A stretch of DNA of 64,000 nt from Thalassotalea sp. 42_200_T64 (GTDB lineage: Bacteria; Pseudomonadota; Gammaproteobacteria; Enterobacterales; Alteromonadaceae). Shown here piece after piece: positions 25,395 to 26,120 of this stretch. Numbering within the stretch: the stretch's first letter is position 1; each line of letters starts with the position of its first letter. The stretch lies in the NCBI GenBank assembly GCA_002162925.1, contig MABC01000054.1:1-64000 (forward strand). Reading direction: 5' to 3'. Both the position numbers and the translations under genes were made by a program. The notes below the pieces were generated by a model, which was given only the letters and a program-made list of their open reading frames with translations, was not told where the DNA came from and did no database searches.

Positions 25395-26120
25395 CTAATC
25401 GTCGTCATCAAAGACATTGCCAGAGACATTACAGAAATTTGATGGATCAGCATCGCCACCATGTTCCTCTATTATCGCCGCTAAATTGAAACGGTTATCT
25501 ATCAGGCTCTGAATATAGCTATTCAAATCTTCCGGATTTTGGAGAATGGGGTAATTAAGCCCAAAGGGCCCATTGCCGCCGGTGTTGTAATGAACGATAG
25601 CATTCAAATACATGGCAATCATCTGTGGCGCAAATAGATAGCCATTATCATCAGCACAGGTAGCGGTGGTGTCGTCGTCATCATCGCCATCGTCATTATC
25701 TTCATCTTCATCTTCGTTATCATGGCCATCATCATTGTCGTTGTCATGGTCATCATCGTCATCATTACCAAAGTTAAGGGGATCAGTACAACAAAAACAC
25801 TGCAACAGACTTATCAAGCTAGTGGCAGGCCCTTCCCCGAAAATGCTGTTGAATGACATATCGCTAATGTCGGTCCAATAATTATCCTGTTCGAGCCATG
25901 CGCAAGGTCCTAACAATTCAATAGGATCGCCACCGGCAAAATCAGAAGCATGACCCGAAGCGATTATTGAATTTACCACGTTATTCGCGAATACAGACTT
26001 TGCCGGAATTGAGGCCACAACAATGCCTGCGGCGGTGCGGGTCAAGAACTTTCTGCGGGTCGGCTTCACGATTTTATCGGTATCCTGGTTAATTTGCTCT
26101 TCTTGTTTCATTACCGTCAA
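25395..26120 (-). CDS. Tat-signal Asp/Asn-rich secreted protein, candidate substrate of the adjacent modification genes
   Basis: Twin-arginine signal TRRKFLTRTAAGIVVASIPAKSVFA; acidic low-complexity DDDDDHDNDNDDGHDNEDEDEDNDDGDDDDD; ends DDDD. Confidence 0.75.
   Translation of the reverse strand: MTVMKQEEQINQDTDKIVKPTRRKFLTRTAAGIVVASIPAKSVFANNVVNSIIASGHASDFAGGDPIELLGPCAWLEQDNYWTDISDMSFNSIFGEGPATSLISLLQCFCCTDPLNFGNDDDDDHDNDNDDGHDNEDEDEDNDDGDDDDDTTATCADDNGYLFAPQMIAMYLNAIVHYNTGGNGPFGLNYPILQNPEDLNSYIQSLIDNRFNLAAIIEEHGGDADPSNFCNVSGNVFDDDD

Follow-up and report, generated by a model that had tools for sequence, protein, structure and literature searches.

Lasso-peptide kinases are homologues of HprK. 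Their motif is His-Lys-Asp-Asp, and the residue they phosphorylate is a C-terminal Ser; the Ser on which the lasso-peptide module acts belongs to a ribosomally made precursor (review, PMC9266682). For pseudomycoidin, PsmK carries out the phosphorylation, and hexoses are attached to the phosphoserine by PsmN, a homologue of nucleotidyltransferases (PMC9266682). In the HPr-rel-A system (TIGR04352 and TIGR04353), the kinase is widespread in the phylum (above cut-off in 61 of 399 sampled genomes), yet the NCBIfam models name no target for it. NCBIfam (June 2026) and Pfam hold models for this kinase, the PqqD-like chaperone and the nucleotidyltransferase domain described below, and none for the cargo; literature searches on HprK-related kinase, on HprK with PEP-CTERM and on exosortase with HPr kinase found no paper in the collection covered. 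PEP-CTERM genes are preceded by a bipartite element, a 17-nt motif ending in TTTACA followed, after a spacer of 32-92 nt, by a sigma-54 -24/-12 site (Haft et al. 2006, PMC1569441).

The window, meaning the whole stretch of 64,000 nucleotides of Thalassotalea sp. 42_200_T64 that was analysed, encodes such a kinase in an operon-like run. The run is headed by the gene of a protein (the cargo) that is, judged by its sequence, a member of an unnamed family of putatively Tat-exported proteins. We consider it probable that the cargo is the substrate of the HPr-rel-A cassette, with PrsR and sigma-54 driving its expression, and that it is phosphorylated, decorated and exported by Tat to act with the XrtA/PEP-CTERM exopolysaccharide. 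The features concerned are the following:

23070..24185, minus strand: NTP_transf_5 nucleotidyltransferase (PF14907, E 7e-46) with D121-x-D123
24182..25042, minus strand: HprK-related kinase A (TIGR04352, 305 bits, cut-off 200) with catalytic H103, GxxGxGKST (K124) and D142-E143
25042..25329, minus strand: PqqD-like (RRE-type) peptide chaperone, 95 aa, assigned by position to a divergent HPr-rel-A PqqD type
25395..26111, minus strand: putative Tat-exported cargo/precursor gene, 238 aa with the ATG at 26111 as start, based on the ORF listing and family membership
25575..25634, minus strand: core of the mature domain around APQMIAMYLNAIVH, with A-x-Y-L-N-A, common to other members
25671..25763, minus strand: acidic low-complexity tract of 31 residues (117-147), lineage-specific insert of variable length
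25788..25799, minus strand: CFCC cluster, residues 105-108, Thalassotalea pair only
25944..25970, minus strand: S48-x3-S52-x3-S56 segment just behind the signal, candidate modification site, predicted to be disordered
25986..26057, minus strand: twin-arginine signal peptide, R19-R20 to about A42, c-region AKSVFA, RR invariant in aligned cargos
26197..26212, minus strand: motif 2, sigma-54 -24(GG)/-12(GC) promoter, TGGTATATTCTTTGCA
26265..26281, minus strand: motif 1, PEP-CTERM regulatory element (TGTC-N7-TTTACA), TGTCAGGAATTTTTACA, presumed PrsR site

The ORF as listed spans 25395-26120 on the minus strand and opens with a TTG at 26120. The ATG at 26111 (MKQEEQ...) is more likely to be the real start, because the orthologue in Thalassotalea sp. 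ND16A (L001; G007/L003), the closest one at about 92% identity, is conserved from that point onward. The first-pass annotation had described an Asp/Asn-rich ORF with a Tat signal, a long acidic tract and a CFCC cluster, lying in the precursor position as first gene of a modification operon; the description is right and the gene order confirms the position. The protein ends in VFDDDD. It is not recognisable as a PEP-CTERM protein, as TIGR02595 gave no match and the C-terminal PEP motif, transmembrane helix and basic end were missing. Pfam and NCBIfam searches of the cargo returned nothing except Tat-signal models and low-complexity matches, a PDB sequence search with the cargo profile gave no significant match and a plasmid search found none. 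Facing the cassette, the plus strand encodes at 20923-23040 a 705-aa protein in which a TauD/CsiD-type dioxygenase domain is fused to an ATP-grasp (RimK-like) domain at the C-terminus. It is kept in the sister species and absent from the other HprK loci examined; its presence in the Thalassotalea pair only led us to drop it as a cassette member. On the other side, a ferritin-like ORF (27467-27871, plus strand) codes for 134 aa here and 176 aa in L001, diverging after 'EQH', which suggests a frameshift or sequencing error.

The active-site residues of both cassette enzymes are intact and conserved: H103, K124, D142 and E143 of the kinase are kept in 36/36 sequences, and D121-x-D123 of the nucleotidyltransferase, whose gene adjoins that of the kinase in 38 of 41 wide loci, in 35/35. 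The PqqD-like protein of the window had no match among Pfam and NCBIfam HMMs, and this degree of divergence counts against its proposed role; its position and size are those of copies elsewhere that score above the TIGR04353 cut-off. PDB sequence searches with the kinase, the nucleotidyltransferase and the PqqD-like protein gave nothing significant, and a PqqD-like profile gave a weak PDB match to a radical SAM protein, in its N-terminal part.

Loci of HprK-related kinase A were gathered across the order and the phylum, and 40 of these were read over 12-19 kb. Clustering of their neighbours placed the same kind of gene directly before the PqqD-like gene in 34 of 41 loci (window included), and the profile built from it matches the window protein with an E value of 1.2e-33, the window sequence itself being part of that profile. 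The cargos are mostly 160-280 aa long and occur in two types. Type 1 possesses an invariant R-R, an h-region, then in many members C-x2-S-G-x2-S-G-N-x-S, and finally a GYWK...LNA mature domain for which no Pfam model turned up in the cargo family; in the window protein the LNA motif is met as MYLNA in the C-terminal half (N170). The h-region ends with a basic residue followed by x-x-[WFLMA]-[AGS] in 44 of 57 cargos. Type 2 cargos come from genomes that are more remote; they retain the RR signal but differ in the mature part, nearly all ending in [ST]-C-W-x-S-[FLI], whose Ser is invariant (22/22 aligned sequences). The AlphaFold model of the window protein has a pLDDT of 62 and no PDB fold match. 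That of another member (L070) reaches 79, with a confident helical mature domain (blocks above 90) and a poor N-terminal stretch of about 60 residues; this model has no PDB match below E 0.6.

Export by Tat, as proposed in the first-pass annotation, is backed by the invariance of the RR pair in 32/32 type 1 and 22/22 type 2 cargos of the alignments. In the window protein, T18-R19-R20-K-F-L (TRRKFLT) is a textbook twin-arginine motif, and TIGR01409 scores 15.3 bits, just under its cut-off of 16.7. A search for TatC in the organism's own 87%-complete assembly did not find it, a point against the proposed model. This is probably an assembly gap, since TatC is present in 49/49 relatives checked, among them the sister species with the same operon.

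HprK_rel_A (TIGR04352) exceeds its cut-off in 30 of the 296 genomes of the order; the set of genomes matched by the cargo profile (E<1e-18) is identical, with no match in the remaining 266. As 25 of the 30 had fed the profile, the fair evidence consists of the other 5 and the absence from the 266. A class-level search that started from the cargo yielded 20 full-length RR-bearing matches, 19 of them new, and all 20 have HprK directly downstream on the same strand. Absence of orthologues from other HprK-rel/PqqD loci, which the first-pass annotation had named as evidence that would speak against it, is thus the opposite of what was found. Chance or a local artefact of synteny would accord with the whole neighbourhood that the Thalassotalea pair have in common, but this explanation is refuted by a linkage that persists across many families and orders, and we give it practically no credence. 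The GYWK...LNA domain also occurs C-terminally in four larger Sec-type secreted proteins (L133-L136); these share the mature domain only and lack the RR, the SGN-S segment and an adjoining HprK. It is therefore the signal and the Ser segment, not the domain, that accompany the kinase. About 8 of roughly 70 HprK_rel_A loci have no recognisable cargo upstream, which weighs against the proposed model.

Loci L097, L098 and L100 and a few small ones have HprK_rel_A without a recognisable Tat cargo upstream; their cargo may be elsewhere or represent a third type. Tiny Tat-signal proteins of 87 and 59 aa are encoded near divergent HprK-type kinases at L137:1510-1773 and L138:1534-1713, the former locus also having a PqqD-like gene. 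These are possible minimal, RiPP-like versions.

The segment just behind the signal peptide offers a candidate site of modification. S-x3-S, with a small residue next to it (S-x3-S-[small]), follows the signal in 52 of 57 cargos, against 16.6 +/- 3.2 (maximum 26) in shuffled segments, and S-x3-S-x3-S in 45 of 57, against 3.7 +/- 1.8 (maximum 10); as the 57 sequences are related, these counts describe conservation and are not independent trials. With a pLDDT below 50 in the AlphaFold model of the window protein, the segment is predicted to be flexible and accessible. Two points tell against it as the target of the cassette: the Ser pattern could serve otherwise, for example in O-glycosylation or as signal-peptidase context, and the most conserved Ser of the type 2 cargos is at the opposite end of the protein.

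The acidic tract of the window protein consists of Asp, Asn and Glu, or more fully of residues that are nearly all D/N/E/G/H, and is encoded by an imperfect GAT/GAC repeat. Alignment with the ND16A orthologue, the comparison suggested in the first-pass annotation, shows that the length of the tract varies (34 residues there, 31 here, a difference of three) while the flanks are conserved at about 92%. Among the approximately 57 family members, the tract and CFCC occur in the two Thalassotalea copies only, and both are, from this distribution, lineage-specific local inserts. As every other member lacks them, neither can be a general recognition or modification target of the cassette, and their role as functional parts is unsupported. 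The protein could still be viewed as an acidic Ca- or metal-binding matrix protein whose function lies in the Asp tract, as its 31 nearly all D/N/E/G/H residues and FDDDD C-terminus would lead one to expect. This we regard as highly improbable: orthologues outside the Thalassotalea pair lack the tract, CFCC and the acidic C-terminus, the tract is a DNA repeat of varying length, and the tract was rejected as the seat of function on these comparisons. It appears to be dispensable and would represent an insert specific to Thalassotalea, prone to slippage and placed in a variable region, that at most adds cation binding; the binding of Ca or metal raised in the first-pass annotation thus survives as a possible local add-on and not as the function of the cargo.

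Many Tat substrates are cofactor proteins, and a Cys is conserved in many cargo members. If the cargo took up a cofactor or metal while still in the cytoplasm, and owed its Tat export to this, the cassette would be a set of cofactor maturation factors rather than of phospho-tailoring enzymes. This is very unlikely, although somewhat less so than the matrix protein: no set of metal ligands is conserved across members, the window protein lacks the first conserved Cys, and a cofactor would scarcely fit into the mini-cargos of 59-87 aa (L138, L137).

An exosortase link and a sigma-54 promoter, both missed by the first-pass annotation, were also identified. Exosortase (TIGR02602) is present in 75 of the 296 genomes of the order, namely in 30/30 with HprK_rel_A versus 45/266 others (Fisher p 7e-21, phylogeny ignored). 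Many HprK_rel_A loci have PrsK-, PrsR- or PrsT-like genes nearby, and a trypsin-like protease occurs in 14 loci, often directly upstream of the cargo. In the organism's own genome, contig C6 carries the XrtA exosortase (TIGR03109), exopolysaccharide genes, PrsR-like and PrsT-like genes and this trypsin-like protease. Upstream of the cargo gene, motifs 1 and 2 form a bipartite element with a spacer inside the published 32-92 nt. A sigma-54-like site is found upstream of 38 of 51 cargos (2.1 expected from shuffles), and 26 of these 38 are also preceded by TTTACA on one strand or the other (against 4.1 expected). Genome-wide, the bipartite element has only three matches: one at the cargo operon, one at a PEP-CTERM gene next to the XrtA locus (C6) and one elsewhere. 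The last (L141, G000 contig C48 at about 5353-5447) lies ahead of an unknown ORF of 84 aa, upstream of which is a similar ORF, also of 84 aa.

Strong common regulation together with exosortase linkage would alone explain the co-occurrence of cassette and cargo if the two were merely co-regulated within the exosortase/exopolysaccharide programme, with the kinase acting on a different protein or on a glycan precursor while the cargo is exported unmodified. We judge this unlikely, while taking it more seriously than the other alternatives: the cargo stays adjacent to the PqqD gene while the remaining neighbourhood changes, the presence of a peptide-binding, PqqD-like protein implies that the substrate is a peptide or protein, and the conservation of the Ser residues exceeds the requirements of Tat. 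The most economical reading is phospho-tailoring of the cargo ahead of Tat export, within the exosortase/exopolysaccharide programme. PrsR and sigma-54 would transcribe the operon as part of this programme. The PqqD-like protein, through its RRE-type domain, would bind the N-terminal part of the precursor and present it to HprK-related kinase A, which would phosphorylate at least one of the conserved Ser residues that closely follow the signal peptide (S48/S52/S56). A further group, a nucleotide or sugar, would then be attached to the phosphate by the NTP_transf_5 protein, and Tat would export the modified protein, which would function at the surface alongside the XrtA/PEP-CTERM exopolysaccharide. 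As a tentative and rather doubtful extension, the RRE-guided HprK-type kinase and NTP_transf_5 may form a new route of protein modification in which a phospho-linked nucleotide or sugar is built on a Ser ahead of Tat export, the product being a surface protein that primes or covalently joins the exosortase-linked exopolysaccharide.

Among the described systems that come close, the HPr-rel-A system agrees in that the window kinase is a full member of TIGR04352 (305 bits against 200) and several cargo neighbours in other genomes are TIGR04353 PqqD-family peptide chaperones. NCBIfam has no substrate model for that system, whereas here a cargo family, NTP_transf_5, a sigma-54 promoter and exosortase linkage are associated with it. 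The SynChlorMet cassette (ScmC/ScmD) likewise combines HprK-related and PqqD-like proteins (weak matches) but is distinct, with scores far below cut-off. The PEP-CTERM/XrtA exopolysaccharide system (PrsK/PrsR/PrsT) shares the same bipartite promoter element (PMC1569441) and the same genomes, the organism's own genome having XrtA, PrsR-like and PrsT-like genes; the cargo differs in possessing a Tat signal and no PEP-CTERM tail. With the lasso systems (paeninodin PadeK, pseudomycoidin PsmK/PsmN) the cassette shares the combination of an RRE-type (PqqD-like) protein, an HprK-type kinase and a nucleotidyltransferase, and the invariant C-terminal Ser of the type 2 cargos resembles the one phosphorylated by lasso-peptide kinases. 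No B2 protease or lasso cyclase C was found in 18000-38000, and the neighbour families that recur at the loci include none that was recognised as either. The cargo is in most cases a Tat protein of 160-280 aa and not a short peptide, and the cassette kinase has H-K-D-E in place of the lasso H-K-D-D, the Glu as fourth residue being a further point against the proposed model. By analogy, the cassette may work like the lasso phospho-tailoring module, yet it is no lasso system. Through the linked cargo family and its short candidate site, a kinase/chaperone pair that was an orphan becomes a modification pathway open to testing, one that would join RiPP-type enzymes with Tat export and add a Tat branch to the exosortase/exopolysaccharide programme, of relevance to biofilm formation and flocculation.
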